From the NCBI RefSeq assembly GCF_016592575.1, contig NZ_AP017470.1, positions 2,180,501-2,244,500 of the forward strand: a stretch of DNA of 64,000 bases, in the 5' to 3' direction. Both the position numbers and the translations under genes were made by a program. Numbering within the stretch: position 1 is the first letter of the stretch; every line of letters begins with the position of its first letter. This stretch comes from Thermotomaculum hydrothermale (GTDB lineage Bacteria > Acidobacteriota > Holophagae > Thermotomaculales > Thermotomaculaceae). Below the pieces are notes generated by a model. It had not been told where the DNA came from, did no database searches, and saw only the letters and a program-made list of their open reading frames with translations. Positions 41,084 to 49,977 of this stretch are shown here, piece by piece.

Positions 41084-41172
41084 ACCAGCCTCCTGAAAAA
41101 ATTTACTACGTTCTTTATTTAAGCAAGTAGTATGCCTGATTTTTGCTTTAATCCTTTTAAATCAAGGTTTTG

Positions 41173-41188: not shown

Positions 41189-42709
41189 ATGAATAAAAAG
41201 ATTGTAAAAAGCGGAGTATTGATTTCTTTAGGCACATTGTTTTCAAGGATTTTAGGGCTTTTAAGGGAGATTGTAACCGCCAATTATTTTGGTGCAGGTA
41301 AAGCCTTTGATTCCTTTGTTGTGGCATTTACAATTCCCAACCTATTCAGAAGGGTTTTAGGGGAAGAGATGTTTGAAAGGGCTTTTATGCCCAGGTTTAA
41401 AAGATTGAAAGAACAGGGGGAGATTGATTCTGCAAAGAGTTTTTTTGTAAGGGTAATTGTTTTTACATTTTTTACATCAATCTTTGCCTGTCTTTTGATT
41501 TATATCTTTGTCCCCCAATTGATTTCCTTAATAGCCCCTGGTTTAAAGGGAGACTCCTACCAATACGCAGTTAAGTTTGGCTATAAACTTATACCTTTTT
41601 TGTTTTTTATTGCCTTTGCCACTCTATTAGGTGCTTTTCTATTGTTTAATGAAAAATCATTTATCTATGCCATTGCCCCCGCCTTTATGAATGTTGGCAC
41701 AATTGGATTTTTAGTTCTTTTCTATAAAAAATTAGGGGAGATATCCATAGTCTACGCATACCTTTTAGGGGCTTTGCTTTTCTTTTTAATTCAGGTGCCT
41801 TTTGCCTTTAAGGTTTATTTTTCAATTGGAAATAGCGGTGGAGAAAAAGGGCGAGTTAATGCAAAAGAGGAATTTAACTCCTCACTTTTTGAGGGGGGGA
41901 AGATATTTGCCCTTTCCATTGTCAATAAAAGCGTTGAGATTGTTGACAGGCTTGTTGCGTCATTGGTTGGAAGCGGTGCAATTTCTTCCCTATGGTACAG
42001 TTTTAGAATAATTCACCTTCCCTTTGCTTTTTTTTCTCTTGCACTGTCAAGGGCACTTGCCCCGGAGTTTTCAAGGCTAAAAGGGAATAGGGACAATAAA
42101 GAGTTTTCTATATTAATAGCAAGGGGATTGCTTATAAATATTGCTATTCTCCTTCCCATTACAGTTTTTTTTATGGTTTTCCCGGATGAAATTATTACTG
42201 TTTTTTACAAAAGGGGGAATTTCGGGACTCACTCTCTTGTTTTAACCTCAAAGGCATTTTTCTACTATTCCCTTGCCCTTCTCCCTATGGGCACTATTGC
42301 GGTTTTAGGAAGGGCTTACTCATCTCTTGAAAACAATACATTTCCCTTGATTGCCTCTATTGTTGGGGCAGTTTTCAATATTGTACTTGACTTTATTCTT
42401 TACAGAACAAGTTTAAAGCAGGGGGGAATTGCACTTGCAACAGCAATTTCTATGTATATTCAGGTTGTAATCCTTTATTACTTTCTATCCAACTTTGGGA
42501 TTAAATTGAAAAGAGAAAATTTTAAAGGTTTGCCCAAAATAATATTTGCACTTATTCCTTACTCGCTATCCCTTTTTGTATTAAAATATTTCATAACAGG
42601 TTTTAAGGGATTTTTCTTTTACGCCTCTTTTATAGGTTTAGGCGGAGTATTTTCTATTTTGTATTTTGCGGGAGTGCTATGGTTGATGAAAAAGCAATTA
42701 AAAAGATAA
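41189..42709 (+). CDS. murJ: lipid II flippase MurJ
   Basis: A 506-residue polytopic membrane protein with about 14 helices. It has the MurJ/MviN signatures SRILGLLREIVTANYFGAG and FTIPNLFRRVLGEEMFERAFMPRF. It moves lipid II to the outer face of the inner membrane for peptidoglycan synthesis. An in-frame ATG 57 nt further upstream would add an unlikely N-terminal extension; the one at 41189 begins directly before the first helix. It overlaps murG by 31 nt, and murG and mraY follow, so the operon collects the three lipid-linked steps. Confidence 0.95.
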   Translation: MNKKIVKSGVLISLGTLFSRILGLLREIVTANYFGAGKAFDSFVVAFTIPNLFRRVLGEEMFERAFMPRFKRLKEQGEIDSAKSFFVRVIVFTFFTSIFACLLIYIFVPQLISLIAPGLKGDSYQYAVKFGYKLIPFLFFIAFATLLGAFLLFNEKSFIYAIAPAFMNVGTIGFLVLFYKKLGEISIVYAYLLGALLFFLIQVPFAFKVYFSIGNSGGEKGRVNAKEEFNSSLFEGGKIFALSIVNKSVEIVDRLVASLVGSGAISSLWYSFRIIHLPFAFFSLALSRALAPEFSRLKGNRDNKEFSILIARGLLINIAILLPITVFFMVFPDEIITVFYKRGNFGTHSLVLTSKAFFYYSLALLPMGTIAVLGRAYSSLENNTFPLIASIVGAVFNIVLDFILYRTSLKQGGIALATAISMYIQVVILYYFLSNFGIKLKRENFKGLPKIIFALIPYSLSLFVLKYFITGFKGFFFYASFIGLGGVFSILYFAGVLWLMKKQLKR

Positions 42710-44664
42710 AAGTATTGCTTACAGGAGGGGGCACAGCAGGCCATGTAATCCCCTGTATAGCAATTTACAATATTTTGAAAAAGCACTTTGAGGTTGAGAA
42801 AACACTTTATCTCGGGCTTAAAGGTAAGGCGGAAGAGGTAATTGTTCCCAAGCAAAATATCCCCCTTGAATTTATAAAAACTTCCCCCTTTGCAGGGAAA
42901 TCTGGATTAAATAAGTTTAAGGCACTTTTGTCAATTTCTGTGGGAGTGCTTCAATCTATAGGAAAAATAGTAAAGTTTAAACCTGATTTAATTGTTGGTG
43001 CCGGCGGCTATGTCTCTGCACCGGTTATTGTTGCAGGATTTCTGTTAAAGCCGTTTTTAAAACACAGGATTGTTTTGGACGAGCAAAACCTTGTGCCCGG
43101 TTTGTTAAACAAGGTTGCTTCCTTATTTGCAGATACTGTTTTTGTTAACTTTAAAGAGAGTTCTTACTTTATCTGGAGCAATCAATCGGTATATACAGGC
43201 TATCCTGTTAGAAGCCAGTACCTTGAAGATTACAATAGTGAAGATTTCAAGGAAAAGTTGGGCTTTTCAAGGGATAAGAATATTGTGTTAATAACTGGCG
43301 GTTCATTGGGGGCAAGGACTTTAAACAGGCTTGTTGCAGCTTCAATCAAGGAGTTGTCTGAATTTAAAAATACTTTTTTTGTGCATTCAATAGGTTTAAA
43401 CACTTCAAATTATTACAATGCCTTTGAAGATACACTTAGTATTTTAAAAAAATCAGGGTTAGAAATTGAGGTTAAAGACGATGAGATAAAAGCCTATAAA
43501 GGTAATGAGGTTTTTTACACTGGAAAAAGGTTTATAGATAATATCTTTGACTGGCAAAAGGCAGCAGACTTGATAATTTCAAGGGCTGGGGCTGGTGCCA
43601 TATCTGAAATTCTCGCTTTAGGCAAAGCTTCAATCCTCGTTCCTAAAAGGGGGCTTCCAGGAGACCATCAGGAGTTAAACGCAATAGGTATTGCTGAAAA
43701 AGAGGCTTGCGAGGTATTGTTTGAAAAGAGGAAAAACGGTGATGAGTTTATAGAAAAGAATGAGTTTCTCTCTCTTTTAAAAACAATGCTTGAAAACAAG
43801 GAAAAGAGAGAGGAGATGGGGAAAATTGCAAAATCACTATTTTTCCCGAAATGTGAAGAGATAATTGTTGAAACCGTTACCAAACTTCTTAATGGGGAAG
43901 ATGATGAGATTAACTTTTTAACAGGAGTTTTTGAGCCTCAATTTGTTAAATTTCAAAGATACTTTGATAATCTTGTAAGGTACCTTGATGCAATACCTTC
44001 CTCAGATAGGGGAAAAAACCTTTATGCAAGGTTTTACAGCATAAAGGTTGAGGAGTTTTTGCAGTCAAAGGATTTTATGACTGTAAACAAGGGGATAAAG
44101 CTTGTTGGGGCATTGAGGCTTGAAAAGTATTACTCCTTCCTATGGCAAAACTTTAAAAATTTTAAAGGATATTTAAGGAGAAATACACTTATTGCCTTTA
44201 GAAAATCAGAAAAGTTTTTCCCTGAGTTTGTAAATATTATTGAATCAGGTTTAAACGATTCTTACTTTGAGGCAAGGAGAGAGGCTATTGCACTTTTCAG
44301 GCGTTTTTATAAAGAACTTTCAGCAAGTGATAATATAAAGAAAAAAATTCTTGAAAATTTAGATAAAAGATTTGAAAGTTTTGAGGTGATTGCCGAAAGC
44401 ATTAAAGCATCTGCTTTTATACTTGATGAGGATAGTTTTATAAAATTGAATAAGAGATTTTTAACCCATAAAAATGTGAGAATTAGAGAGGCCTTGCTTG
44501 ATGCGGTAAGGCTTGCAATAGACTATTCCAGTTTTTCTGATATTGAAAAGCTTACAGTTTTTTTAAAGAAAATGCTTATAACAACCTCTGAGTTTAAACC
44601 TGTTTACAGTGTAAGGGAAAAGTATTTCAAAACTCTTAAAATATTAGAGGGAAAAAATGATTAA
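42679..44664 (+). CDS. murG: MurG (UDP-GlcNAc transferase) with a ~250-residue HEAT-like C-terminal extension
   Basis: A 661-residue protein; usual MurG is about 350-370 residues. Residues 1 to about 405 are a full MurG, with GGGTAGHV (16-23), VGAGGYVSAPVIVAG, DEQNLVPGLLNK, TGGSLGARTLN and SRAGAGAISEILALGKASILVP. It adds GlcNAc to lipid I at the cytoplasmic membrane face. Residues about 415-661 form alpha-helical repeats suggestive of HEAT/ARM units (e.g. YFEARREAIALFRRFYKE and KNVRIREALLDAVRLAI). The extension is in frame and overlaps mraY by 8 nt, so it is not an annotation artefact. GGGAG precedes the ATG. The function of the extension is unknown. Confidence 0.92.
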   Translation: MVDEKAIKKIKVLLTGGGTAGHVIPCIAIYNILKKHFEVEKTLYLGLKGKAEEVIVPKQNIPLEFIKTSPFAGKSGLNKFKALLSISVGVLQSIGKIVKFKPDLIVGAGGYVSAPVIVAGFLLKPFLKHRIVLDEQNLVPGLLNKVASLFADTVFVNFKESSYFIWSNQSVYTGYPVRSQYLEDYNSEDFKEKLGFSRDKNIVLITGGSLGARTLNRLVAASIKELSEFKNTFFVHSIGLNTSNYYNAFEDTLSILKKSGLEIEVKDDEIKAYKGNEVFYTGKRFIDNIFDWQKAADLIISRAGAGAISEILALGKASILVPKRGLPGDHQELNAIGIAEKEACEVLFEKRKNGDEFIEKNEFLSLLKTMLENKEKREEMGKIAKSLFFPKCEEIIVETVTKLLNGEDDEINFLTGVFEPQFVKFQRYFDNLVRYLDAIPSSDRGKNLYARFYSIKVEEFLQSKDFMTVNKGIKLVGALRLEKYYSFLWQNFKNFKGYLRRNTLIAFRKSEKFFPEFVNIIESGLNDSYFEARREAIALFRRFYKELSASDNIKKKILENLDKRFESFEVIAESIKASAFILDEDSFIKLNKRFLTHKNVRIREALLDAVRLAIDYSSFSDIEKLTVFLKKMLITTSEFKPVYSVREKYFKTLKILEGKND

Positions 44665-45760
44665 ACTACTAATAGAACTTTTACACGCAAACGGCATAGA
44701 CTTTGGGTTTTTCAGGTTAATAAATTACATAACCTTCAGGGCGTTAATGGGAATGGTATTTTCTTTATTATTCTGCCTGATTTACGGTTCTGATTTTATT
44801 GTTTTTCTATATAAAAAGGGGATGAAAGATACTTCAGGGGAAGCGGATGTATCATCTTTCTCAAAGAAAGGCACTCCCACAGCAGGCGGGCTGTTGATAA
44901 TTATATCAACAATTTTTTCCCTGTTTTTCTGGGGAGATTTTAGAAATACCTATGTAATTGTTTTATTAATTGGTTTTCTATATACAGGTTTTGTTGGCTT
45001 TATTGATGATTTTTTAAAGGTCAGGTTTAAATCCTCTCTTTCAGGGTTGTCTCAAATGGGCAAAACTGTAATGCTTTTTGCCTTTATTATTCCCTTTGCT
45101 GTTTTTTATCTATCCACTTTAAATCCAATGCAGGAAGGTTTAAAAACTTTAATCTATATCCCATTTTATAAAAATCCGATACTTGCACTTCCAGATTTTA
45201 TCTTTGGAATTTTCATTGTTTTTACAATGTTTTCCATAATAAATGCAGTAAACATTGTTGATGGAATGGATGGGCTTCTTGCCGGCACCTCTGTTTTAAC
45301 CATAGGTGTTTACACAGTATTTGCCTATGTTATTGGAAATAAAATCCTCTCAGGCTACCTTCTTTTCCCTTATATTCCAGGAAGTGAAGAGATTGTAATA
45401 TTCTGCTCAATTTTGATAGGGGGGATTGTTGGGTTTTTATGGTTTAATACCTATCCTGCAGAAGTCTTTATGGGGGACACAGGCTCCCTTGCAATTGGAA
45501 GTGTAATAGGAATGGTTGCCTTCTTTTTAAAGCAGGAATTTCTTTTTTTAATTGTAGGGGGATTGTTTGTTTTTGAAATATTTACCTCTCTCCTGCAGGA
45601 AAAAATAGGCTCTAAAATAGGGAGAAGAATTGTTTACAGGGCACCCTACCACCACACTTTAACCCACAAAGGCATTGCAGAACCAAAGGCAGTTGTAAGG
45701 CTATGGCTAATTTCAGTTATCCTTGCTCTTATTGGTTTACTTTCACTTAAAATCAGATAG
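44657..45760 (+). CDS. mraY: phospho-N-acetylmuramoyl-pentapeptide transferase
   Basis: A 367-residue membrane enzyme with about ten helices that makes lipid I from UDP-MurNAc-pentapeptide and undecaprenyl phosphate. Seen are KGTPTAGGLLII, FIDDFLKV (catalytic Asp pair), NAVNIVDGMDGLLAG, PAEVFMGDTGSLAIG and YHHTLTHKG, all MraY signatures. It is translationally coupled to murG. The usual order mraY, murD, ftsW, murG is not kept: murJ, murG and mraY stand alone here. Confidence 0.96.
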   Translation: MIKLLIELLHANGIDFGFFRLINYITFRALMGMVFSLLFCLIYGSDFIVFLYKKGMKDTSGEADVSSFSKKGTPTAGGLLIIISTIFSLFFWGDFRNTYVIVLLIGFLYTGFVGFIDDFLKVRFKSSLSGLSQMGKTVMLFAFIIPFAVFYLSTLNPMQEGLKTLIYIPFYKNPILALPDFIFGIFIVFTMFSIINAVNIVDGMDGLLAGTSVLTIGVYTVFAYVIGNKILSGYLLFPYIPGSEEIVIFCSILIGGIVGFLWFNTYPAEVFMGDTGSLAIGSVIGMVAFFLKQEFLFLIVGGLFVFEIFTSLLQEKIGSKIGRRIVYRAPYHHTLTHKGIAEPKAVVRLWLISVILALIGLLSLKIR

Positions 45761-46431: not shown

Positions 46432-47727
46432 ATGCCGAGAAGAAGTAGCGCACAGCCTTCACCAAAGGACTTTATCAGCGCAATGCATCAGCTTGCGCAC
46501 GACAAAAACATTGAGTACGAATTGATAATTGAAATGCTCAAAGAAGCAATGATTTCTGCTGCAAGGAAGTACTTTAAAAATGATTCAGAGTTTGAGGTGG
46601 AAATCAATGATGAGACGGGGGAAATCAGAGTTTTTGCTTTGAAAGAGGTTGTTGACAAGGTGGAAGACCCTAAAACTCAGATTTCCCTTGAAGATGCAAA
46701 AAATTACAAAGAGGATGCTGAGATAGGTGAAACAATTAAGATTGAAAAAGACAAAGATTCAATGGGCAGAATTGCAGCAAATGCTGCAAAGCAGGTTATT
46801 ATGTCTAAAATCAAGGACTTTGAAAGGTTTCACATTTACAATGAGTTTAAAGAGAGAATAGGCGAAGTTGTGAATGTTCCGGTAAGAAGGTTTGAAAGGG
46901 GAAATGTTGTTGTTGATTTAGGAAAAACTGAGGGGGTAATTAGAAGAGATCAGTTAATCCCCGGGGAAAGGTTCTCAGTTGGAGATAGGGTGAGAGCTGT
47001 AATAGTTGATGTTGCCAAAGGTGGTGATTTACAGGTTCAACTTTCAAGAACTGATCCAAGACTTTTAATAAAACTGTTTGAAATGGAAGTTCCTGAGGTT
47101 TACGAGGGAACTGTTATTATAAAAAATATTGTCAGAGAACCGGGAGAAAGGTCTAAGGTTGCTGTTTATTCAACAGAACCGGATATTGACCCTATTGGAG
47201 CCTGTGTTGGTGTTGGCGGTTCAAGGATTAAGGCTATATTGAGAGAATTAAAAGGTGAAAAGGTTGACATAATTAAATACGAAGACGACATTGAAAAATT
47301 CGCTGAAAATGCTCTATCCCCTGCCAAATTATTAAGGGTAGCTATTGCAGATAGAGAGACCAAAAGACTTGAGGTTATAGTTTCAGACGACCAGTATTCC
47401 CTTGCAATAGGGACACACGGCCAGAATGTAAGGCTTGCAAGCAAGCTTGTAGGCTGGACAATAGATGTTAAGCGTGAGGCGGATAAAAAAGAAGAAATAA
47501 AAAAACAGATGGGTGGAGGAAGCGACGAAGAGCATGGTGATTTGAAGGAGTTGAAGGGGTTAGGTAAGAAAAAGATTGAAAAACTGGAAGAAGCTGGTTT
47601 TACCAGTATCCAGGATGTGGCTGACGCATCGGTTGATGAATTATCCGCCGTTGAAGGTATAGGAGAAAAATCTGCTGAAAAATTGATAGAGCAGGCTAAA
47701 AAGGCACTACTCGGGGAGGACAACTAA
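46432..47727 (+). CDS. nusA: transcription termination/antitermination factor NusA
   Basis: A 431-residue NusA. It has the N-terminal RNA polymerase-binding domain (about 1-130), S1 domain (about 135-200; ERIGEVVNVPVRRFERGNVVVDLG), two KH domains (about 205-345; DPIGACVGVGGSRIKAIL and IGTHGQNVRLASKLVGW) and a C-terminal helix-hairpin-helix region (about 365-431; LKGLGKKKIEKLEEAGF and VEGIGEKSAEKLIEQA). NusA modulates pausing, termination and antitermination. Its stop overlaps the infB start by one base. Confidence 0.96.
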   Translation: MPRRSSAQPSPKDFISAMHQLAHDKNIEYELIIEMLKEAMISAARKYFKNDSEFEVEINDETGEIRVFALKEVVDKVEDPKTQISLEDAKNYKEDAEIGETIKIEKDKDSMGRIAANAAKQVIMSKIKDFERFHIYNEFKERIGEVVNVPVRRFERGNVVVDLGKTEGVIRRDQLIPGERFSVGDRVRAVIVDVAKGGDLQVQLSRTDPRLLIKLFEMEVPEVYEGTVIIKNIVREPGERSKVAVYSTEPDIDPIGACVGVGGSRIKAILRELKGEKVDIIKYEDDIEKFAENALSPAKLLRVAIADRETKRLEVIVSDDQYSLAIGTHGQNVRLASKLVGWTIDVKREADKKEEIKKQMGGGSDEEHGDLKELKGLGKKKIEKLEEAGFTSIQDVADASVDELSAVEGIGEKSAEKLIEQAKKALLGEDN

Positions 47728-48098
47728 TGGCTAAAAAAAGAGTGCACGAATTAGCAAAAGAGTTAAATGTTTCAAATAAGGAATTAATTGAATTTTTAAA
47801 TTCAGAAGGATACGAAATTAAATCTCATATGAGTTCGGTACCTGAAGAAAGTGTTGCAGAGGTAACTAAACACTTTAAGGGTGATAAATCTGATAAAAAA
47901 ACCAAAAAAGAGGGTACCAAAAAACCTGCTGCTAAAAAGAAAGCAGTAAAAAAAGGTGAAAAAGAAGAAAAAAAGGATTCCAGACCATCTAAAAAAATCG
48001 AAAAGAAAGAAACAAAACCAAAAAAGAAAAAAAGGCAACTGAAAAGAAAGTTGAAAAGAAAGAGGCTAAAAAGCCTAAAAAAGAGACAAAGAAAGTAG
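47727..48098 (+). CDS. infB: translation initiation factor IF-2, N-terminal fragment (frame broken)
   Basis: This frame starts at the normal infB position, with an IF2_N domain (residues 1-55; VHELAKELNVSNKELIEFLNSEGYEI) and the usual Lys/Glu-rich linker. After about residue 102 it goes out of the expected frame: the Glu codons vanish, leaving only Lys, Arg, Leu and Gln, and it stops at 48098. The natural linker continues one base back (-1) from about 48026, reading ATEKKVEKKEAKKPKKETKK, until a TAG at 48173. A second -1 step near 48160-48171 restores the frame of the main IF-2 body at 48292-49977. A joined product would have about 750 residues. Confidence 0.8.
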   Translation: MAKKRVHELAKELNVSNKELIEFLNSEGYEIKSHMSSVPEESVAEVTKHFKGDKSDKKTKKEGTKKPAAKKKAVKKGEKEEKKDSRPSKKIEKKETKPKKKKRQLKRKLKRKRLKSLKKRQRK

Positions 48099-48291
48099 AA
48101 GAAAAACCTAAAAAAGAAGAGAAAAAGCAGAAAAAGGAAGCTAAAAAAGAAAAGGAAGTAAAAAAGAAAAAGTAGTTGCTAAGAAAAAAGAAGAAAAAAA
48201 GTACGAACCTGGAGAGTTAGGCATAATTGAATTATCTGAGTTTACCACTGTAAGGCAACTTGCTGCAAAAATTGGAAGAAAAACAAAAGAA

Positions 48292-49977
48292 GTGATGGCA
48301 AAGTTAAAGGAAAAAGGGGTAAATGCAGGCGCCAATCAAATGATAGAGTTTGATCTTATTGAAGAAGTTGCAGGGGAATTTGGTTACCTTGTTGAAAAAA
48401 TTCCCTATGAACATGAGGCTCTTGTTGAACTTGAAAAACCGGATCCTGAAGATAAATTAAAAGAAAGGCCTCCTATTGTTACCTTAATGGGGCATGTTGA
48501 CCATGGAAAAACCTCACTCCTTGATAAAATAAGGCACAGTAGAATTACTGCAAAGGAGGCAGGTGGAATAACACAGCATATAGGTGCATACCAGGTTGAG
48601 TTTAACGGCAAGAAGATAACATTTCTTGATACCCCGGGACACGAAGCCTTTACAAAAATGAGGGCGAGAGGGGCAAATGTTACTGACATAGTTATTCTCG
48701 TTGTTGCCGCAGACGAAGGAATTAAGCCTCAAACTGTTGAGGCTATAAACCATGCTAAGTCAGCAGGGGTTGCCATAATTGTGGCAATAAACAAAATTGA
48801 TAAGCCTGAAGCAAACCCCGACATGGTAAAAAGGCAATTGCTTGAGCATGACCTTGTTGTTGAGGATTACGGTGGCGATATTATTTCGGTTCCTGTTTCT
48901 GCAAAAAGCGGACAGGGAATTGATGAATTGCTTGAATACATTCTTTTAGTTGCTGAATTACTTGAATTAAAGGCAAATCCTGACAGACCGGCAAAGGGTT
49001 ATATTATTGAAGCAAAAATTGACAAGGGAAGAGGCCCTGTTGCCACCGTCCTTGTTCAAAATGGGACATTAAAGAGAGGGGATACATTTACCTGCGGATA
49101 CACCTACGGAAAAGTCAGGGGTATGTTCAACGATTTAGGTAAACAGGTAAAGGAAGCACCTCCATCAACCCCTGTTGAGGTTTTAGGCTTTAACACAATC
49201 CCTGATGCAGGAGACAAATTTTATGTTGTACAGAACGAGCAGGTGGCAAGGGAGATTGCTGAAGTTAAAAAGGTAAGGGATGAATCAACAAAACAGCAGG
49301 CACAGCCTAAAAAATTAAGCCTTGAAGATTTGTTTAAGAAGATGGAAGAGGGAGAGGTTAAAGAGCTCCCAATTGTTTTAAAGTGTGATGTTCAGGGTTC
49401 AGTTGAAACTATTGATGCACTTTTAAATAAACTTTCTAACCCTGAAGTAAAGATAAATGTTATTCACAAAGCAGTTGGGGCAATTACAGAAAACGATGTT
49501 CTTCTCGCATCTGCATCAAACGCAATTATTGTTGGATTCCATGTAAAGGCGGATAAAAAGACAATGAAGCTTGCTGAACAGGAAGGTGTTGAGATTAGAA
49601 TCCACAACATAATCTATGAATTGACAAATGAGATTAAGGCAGCCATTGAAGGTATGCTTGAGCCTGAAATAAAGGAAGAGGTAATAGGCAGGCTTGAAGT
49701 AAGAAAGGTATTCAAAGTGCCTAAAGTTGGATTTGTTGCAGGCTGCTATGTTCAGGAAGGATACATAACAAGAAAATCAATGGTAAGGGTTTACAGAGAT
49801 AACATACTTATTCATGAAGGAAGAATTTCATCCCTGAAGAGATTTAAAGACGATGTATCTGAAGTTAAGGCAGGATACGAATGTGGATTGTCAATTGAAA
49901 ACCTGAAAGACATCAGAGAGGGTGATGAAATAGAAGCATACATCAATGTTGAGGTTAAGAAAACCTTAGATAAATGA
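48292..49977 (+). CDS. infB: translation initiation factor IF-2, main body
   Basis: A 561-residue frame with start codons GTG 48292 and ATG 48295. It holds part of a second IF2_N domain, which actually begins in the same frame at about 48226, then the G domain: [12 protein letters not shown] (G1), DTPGHEAF (G3), NKID (G4). The beta-barrel domain II, domain III and the C-terminal fMet-tRNA-binding domain ([24 protein letters not shown]) follow. IF-2 brings fMet-tRNA to the 30S subunit. The true start is probably at 47727, through two -1 frame changes. An internal start like that of E. coli IF2-2/IF2-3 would also give a working protein from here, but no convincing RBS precedes 48292. Confidence 0.93.

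Follow-up and report, generated by a model that had tools for sequence, protein, structure and literature searches.

The window, a stretch of 64,000 nucleotides from Thermotomaculum hydrothermale, belongs to a complete genome of one 2.32-Mb contig (G000) and carries on its forward strand three overlapping genes for the membrane-associated steps of peptidoglycan precursor synthesis. These are murJ, encoding the lipid II flippase of the MOP family (41189..42709; TIGR01695, PF03023), an open reading frame of 661 amino acids for a MurG with a HEAT-like extension (42679-44664), and mraY, encoding lipid I synthase (44657..45760; TIGR00445). The murJ frame opens at 41132, and the Met at 41189 was judged by eye to be the likelier start. 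Residues 1-399 of the 661-aa protein (42679..43875) constitute the MurG domain, recognised by TIGR01133, PF03033, PF04101 and Foldseek, while residues ~400-661 (43876..44664) form a C-terminal extension, consisting of a linker (~400-423) and a predicted HEAT solenoid (~424-661) of ~13 helices. The murJ and murG genes share 31 nt (42679..42709), with murG in the -1 frame and a GGGAG 5 nt before its ATG, and the 3' end of the HEAT region overlaps the start of mraY by 8 nt (44657..44664), in agreement with the preliminary description; this latter overlap is common across loci of this type and suggests translational coupling.

The window has murJ and murG-HEAT as two distinct genes, and the fusion there is limited to MurG-HEAT. 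The GGGAG before the murG ATG is found also in G001 and G004, again with separate overlapping genes. Programmed -1 frameshifting from murJ into murG was considered for the window genus and rejected, as the slippery-looking runs (A AAA AAG in G001, T TTA AAA in G004) are not shared and a good one is absent from the window. Since the Shine-Dalgarno-like GGGAG is conserved and the slippery runs are not, separate, coupled initiation of murG is preferred over frameshifting. Elsewhere in the window, infB (IF-2; 47727-49977) is split into two open reading frames in different frames, where the frame appears to shift twice at A-rich runs of the lysine-rich linker; G004 has one frame of 755 aa. The infB split probably reflects homopolymer sequencing errors, or possibly real frameshifts.

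The identity of the N-terminal domain is well founded. TIGR01133 (murG) covers residues 8-399 (E 6.6e-67) and both GT28 Pfam domains score above their gathering thresholds (PF03033, 97.7 bits; PF04101, 91.2 bits), so that the earlier account of a complete MurG followed by an extension of ~250 residues is confirmed. The best Foldseek matches of this domain are all MurG crystal structures (3s2u, 1f0k, 1nlm, 7d1i). The catalytic and donor-site residues (H18, E125, N127, E268 and Q288 in E. coli) are kept in 43-44 of the 44 HEAT-linked MurGs, conservation being scored only for proteins with a residue at the alignment column. The TIGR01133 score of the window MurG, 226 bits, lies below the NCBIfam equivalog cut-off of 250.25, which is a score threshold and no biological feature; because MurGs without HEAT from the related family f2 likewise fall short of it (212-227 bits), we read the low score as a lineage effect.

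The C-terminal extension had been described as HEAT/ARM-like on the appearance of its amphipathic helices, a view borne out by the predicted fold, the structural matches and the Pfam signatures of its homologues. In the AlphaFold2 model of the whole protein a run of helices follows residue 421, mostly with pLDDT 82-97, and the model of the extension alone, built with 36 homologues, is an all-helical solenoid of high confidence (pLDDT 90, pTM 0.84). The matches listed by Foldseek for the extension are HEAT/ARM-type solenoids (AP-1 beta, INTS4, designed ARM, alphaRep, TOG, importin, PP2A A); the top matches are weak by E-value (1.3e-3), and such weak values are common for solenoids. Pfam HEAT_2 (PF13646) was detected in 27 of the 36 homologous domains (best 2.5e-26) and HEAT (PF02985) in 19, while the window copy matches PF25757 alone, under the cut-off (E 1.4e-4). 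Compared with solved structures, the window HEAT sequence alone gave nothing useful, whereas the 36-row profile matched alphaRep and other HEAT chains in the PDB. Taken as predictions, these models support a HEAT solenoid at residues ~424-661.

The extension is also well conserved. Three sister species share 69-75% identity with the window copy, a sister genus 48-50% and another family 39%. Nine residues are invariant in the 36 homologues (N73, K77, L78, R104, N105, D130, Y132, E134 and R206 in extension numbering), and the motifs N-x-G-[IV]-K-L, RRN and D-x-Y-[YF]-E are kept. Between the window genome and G001 the HEAT domain gave dN 0.150 and dS 1.5, and MurG dN 0.157 and dS 2.2, so that purifying selection constrains the HEAT domain just as it does MurG.

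The two neighbouring genes are each present once in the window genome. Its sole MurJ lies in the operon (single hits of TIGR01695, E 7.5e-88, and PF03023, E 1.9e-77) and conserves R18, R24, D39, R52, R53 and R270; R18, R24, R52, R270 and D39 have been reported to be essential in MurJ (PMC4790310). Arg270 (E. coli numbering) is kept in 11 of 26 aligned MurJs of such loci, that of the window among them, an observation that concerns L105-L109, L117-L119, L123, L124 and the operon MurJs of family f28; those without Arg270 may differ in detail. The sole MraY (single TIGR00445 hit, E 2.1e-78) conserves the catalytic D115, D116 and D267 as well as H325/H326.

With the window extension as query, matches were found in 9 of 61 genomes, and the search of genome contigs with the single window sequence gave only one close MAG. 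A HEAT profile at E<1e-20, with generic HEAT proteins well apart at E>1e-12, detected the domain in 48 of 396 sampled Acidobacteriota genomes from 13 families, plus one found separately. MurG-HEAT is no private oddity of the window organism. A fusion common in databases would have refuted the preliminary description, and this is half the case: about 12% of the sampled Acidobacteriota carry it, but no published description was found in the open-access literature. Neither a MurJ-MurG fusion nor a HEAT-linked MurG turned up in searches of that literature. The genomes carrying the unit (module genomes) range in size from 1.8 to 6.5 Mb. Canonical MurGs elsewhere in Acidobacteriota have mostly ordinary frames of ~360-430 aa. 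Open frames of 650-800 aa with MurG in other Acidobacteriota were considered as further fusions, for example FtsW-MurG, and rejected; the N-terminal parts inspected gave no FtsW match, and these frames look like high-GC, out-of-frame read-through of upstream sequence.

In most module genomes the architecture is MurG-HEAT, as in the window. Moreover, MurJ, MurG and HEAT occur in one chain in relatives, a finding absent from the preliminary description and more striking than the point it made. MurJ-MurG-HEAT is encoded as one protein of ~1160-1170 aa in seven genomes of three families (f1 genus 2, f52 and G016). The sister genus contributes four of these genomes, in which, as in G016 from another family, the single open reading frame measures ~1160-1195 aa, with MurJ in full and, by eye, about seven residues between its last membrane helix and the first MurG strand. 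G362 probably has the same fusion, since MurJ and the MurG N-terminus lie in one frame at a contig edge. The permuted order, MurG-MurJ-HEAT, was found in 10 genomes, five each of f27 and f7 (1073-1328 aa), which brings the fused frames to 17 genomes in two orders. The murJ/murG boundary of the window is an in-frame fusion in sister genera, and in every architecture HEAT is the last domain and is followed by mraY. Many of the relatives are probably MAGs, to judge from their many contigs; the fused frames nevertheless recur in independent assemblies. At 1e-20, no MurG was matched in the genomes G169, G218 and G410 (86-93% complete), which had 0-1 candidates and belong to the same genus (g47 of f27) as G124 and G349 with their MurG-MurJ-HEAT; these three may have lost peptidoglycan synthesis or may possess a MurG that has diverged strongly.

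The only constant neighbour at the locus is mraY, which overlaps or abuts the HEAT 3' end in 43 of 44 loci from 14 families, most commonly with an overlap of 4 or 8 nt; at the 44th, a partial mraY lies at a contig edge. The search for conserved neighbours beyond mraY across all module families gave none. As to ESSENTIALITY by sole copy, each of 47 module genomes has the HEAT-linked protein as its sole true MurG, G402 having one extra weak hit (1e-16), and this status supports the view that the HEAT-linked MurG would be the enzyme making lipid II from lipid I. The adjacent MraY is likewise the only true MraY in these genomes except G298, with merely weak extra hits in G016, G196 and G204. In G298, the sole such case of 47, a canonical mraY (430 bits; C62:14676-15644) stands beside the module mraY, which may represent a replacement in progress or contamination. 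The dcw clusters of all nine module genomes checked, from eight families, are without mraY and without murG and retain most of ftsI, murE, murF, murD, ftsW, murC, ftsA and ftsZ; murF is additionally absent in two of the nine and murE in one. In the canonical relative G010 both mraY and murG are in place in the dcw cluster.

In the phylogenies, which were quick searches with SH-aLRT as sole support value, the HEAT-linked MurGs form one clade (SH-aLRT 99, 44 rows), which excludes the canonical MurGs belonging to f3, f6, f25, f28 and f34, families that have HEAT-linked MurGs as well. The MraYs encoded beside them likewise group in a single clade (SH-aLRT 100). Given single MurG and MraY clades and dcw clusters without both genes, the simplest reading would be that mraY and murG-HEAT travelled together and took the place of the dcw copies, in part through horizontal transfer. 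MurJ appears to have been joined to either side of MurG in separate subclades, and since the two fusion orders lie in different MurG subclades, tethering of MurJ to MurG probably arose more than once. In the MurJ tree the window genus is nested in the clade holding the MurJ-MurG-HEAT fusions, and a secondary split of murJ and murG in this genus is therefore plausible; no decision between fusion and fission follows from the MurG tree.

The association with MurJ is looser. The fused MurJ is the only MurJ of the genome in 12 of the 17 fused cases (G006, G186, G314; G096, G111, G136, G307, G424; G124, G349, G370, G384). A second, stand-alone MurJ was seen beside the fused one in G005 (C49), G007 (C95), G008 (C26) and G016 (C41), for which a division of labour or another lipid-linked substrate is possible. 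In several HEAT-type genomes (e.g., of f18, f6 and f35) murJ is unlinked, and at E<=1e-15 no TIGR01695 match was found in five module genomes (G134, G157 and G167 of f31, G107, G165); a different flippase, for example Amj, may operate there, or the gene may be absent from the assembly. Being unlinked in several genomes and unfound in five, MurJ is best regarded as an optional part of the module.

From these gene arrangements we propose, with moderate confidence, that the HEAT domain serves as a physical scaffold involving MraY and/or MurJ, by which the sequence from lipid I to lipid II to flipping would be coupled. MraY would make lipid I, MurG would convert it to lipid II and MurJ would flip the product, the three enzymes being held together in the HEAT lineage. 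As both termini of MurJ are cytoplasmic (PMC4790310), MurG and HEAT would be cytosolic in either fusion order. The solenoid at the MurG C-terminus might then serve as a scaffold in the cytosol that most likely holds on to MraY from its cytoplasmic side. MurG would thereby be placed over MraY and beside the cytoplasmic portal of MurJ, through covalent fusion in the relatives or through tight co-translation in the window. The retention of HEAT where MurG and MurJ are already covalently joined implies that it probably holds a third partner. This could be MraY or another protein; MraY, the only one of the three enzymes never found fused, is proposed because it is the sole constant genetic partner.

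Docking of MurG onto MraY or MurJ had been suggested in the preliminary description, and the genetic evidence speaks strongly for it, given the mraY adjacency, the absence of both genes from dcw clusters and the two MurJ fusion orders, while the HEAT-MraY contact, the hand-over of lipid I and lipid II and the coupling to flipping are deduced from this pattern and may be stated as predictions. A MurG-MraY interaction in E. coli is among the reports cited in PMC6420597. Against an assembly, adjacency and fusion can reflect co-expression alone, and native mass spectrometry of the E. coli enzymes explained lipid transfer by affinity gradients, with no stable complex needed (PMC9046198); against MurJ as a fixed part speaks its unlinked or unfound state in some module genomes. 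Only tentatively do we extend the proposal to one HEAT-scaffolded MraY-MurG-MurJ complex, in which lipid I and lipid II might be handed from active site to active site and on to the flippase without being set free in the bilayer on the way, and which as a transferable module might have displaced the dcw mraY and murG.

Since HEAT solenoids bind many kinds of protein, the domain might instead dock MurG, or MurG-MurJ, elsewhere, for instance on MreB, FtsZ/FtsA, RodA/FtsW or the cytosolic Mur ligases, and so deliver lipid II synthesis to growth sites or channel UDP-MurNAc-pentapeptide. In other bacteria, interaction or co-localisation of MurG is known for MreB, RodA, MurD, MurE and MurF (PMC6420597), and outside docking, too, predicts that HEAT is retained after fusion of MurG with MurJ. 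However, across 14 families the neighbour that has been kept is mraY alone, rather than mreB, an fts gene or a mur ligase gene, and the ligase genes have for the most part remained in the dcw cluster, which makes docking away from MraY rather unlikely in our view.

It is also conceivable that fusion and adjacency merely equalise expression and stability, with HEAT stabilising or oligomerising the protein and no MraY-MurG-MurJ complex being formed; the known fusions of non-consecutive Mur enzymes, MurG/MurC and MurC/Ddl (PMC6420597), are in keeping with this. Yet the solenoid is long, well conserved and subject to purifying selection, and it is kept in two fusion orders and in small as well as large module genomes, for which a binding role fits better, and we consider an effect on expression and stability improbable. 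That the module might serve another polyprenyl-linked glycan in place of peptidoglycan is suggested by the sub-cut-off MurG score and by its forming a clade of its own, but the HEAT-less f2 MurGs score below the cut-off too, both MurG and MraY retain their catalytic residues, and the module supplies the only MurG and, nearly everywhere, the only MraY in genomes with dcw Mur ligases and ftsI/ftsW/ftsZ; such a function is highly improbable. Scaffolding with MraY and/or MurJ accordingly stays our preferred reading.

The module makes it directly testable whether MraY, MurG and MurJ act in a single complex or through a shared membrane pool of lipid I and lipid II, and it is a natural test case for tethering as against affinity gradients. 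The two fusion orders of this lineage, together with the scaffold and the coupled mraY, constitute a natural construct for cryo-EM and reconstitution, which is probably thermostable, and hint at sites where a protein-protein interface might be disrupted by inhibitors of lipid II synthesis or flipping.

Natural fusions in the Mur pathway are known, namely MurE-MurF, MurB-MurC, MurG-MurC, MurC-Ddl and MraY-MurG (listed in PMC6420597). Like the module, they unite consecutive or neighbouring pathway enzymes in one polypeptide and have been read as scaffolding or channelling; among those listed, the lipid II synthase is in no case linked to the flippase and no HEAT domain has been reported, and, unlike them, the module has the same MurG/MurJ pair fused in two orders. 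The fold and repeat signature of the extension are shared with HEAT-repeat proteins (PF13646 HEAT_2; AP-1 beta, INTS4, designed alphaRep), whereas for HEAT joined to GT28 or to MurJ no description was found in the open-access literature. For Bordetella pertussis, a membrane-proximal Mur complex with MurG as its hub has been proposed (PMC6420597), a role similar to that suggested here; there the scaffold is the oligomerisation of MurG itself, whereas the module has a dedicated HEAT solenoid and genetically linked mraY and murJ. Finally, the gradient model for E. coli (PMC9046198) concerns these three enzymes too and has the lipids transferred in the same direction, but needs no physical tether, whereas the module supplies one by fusion.
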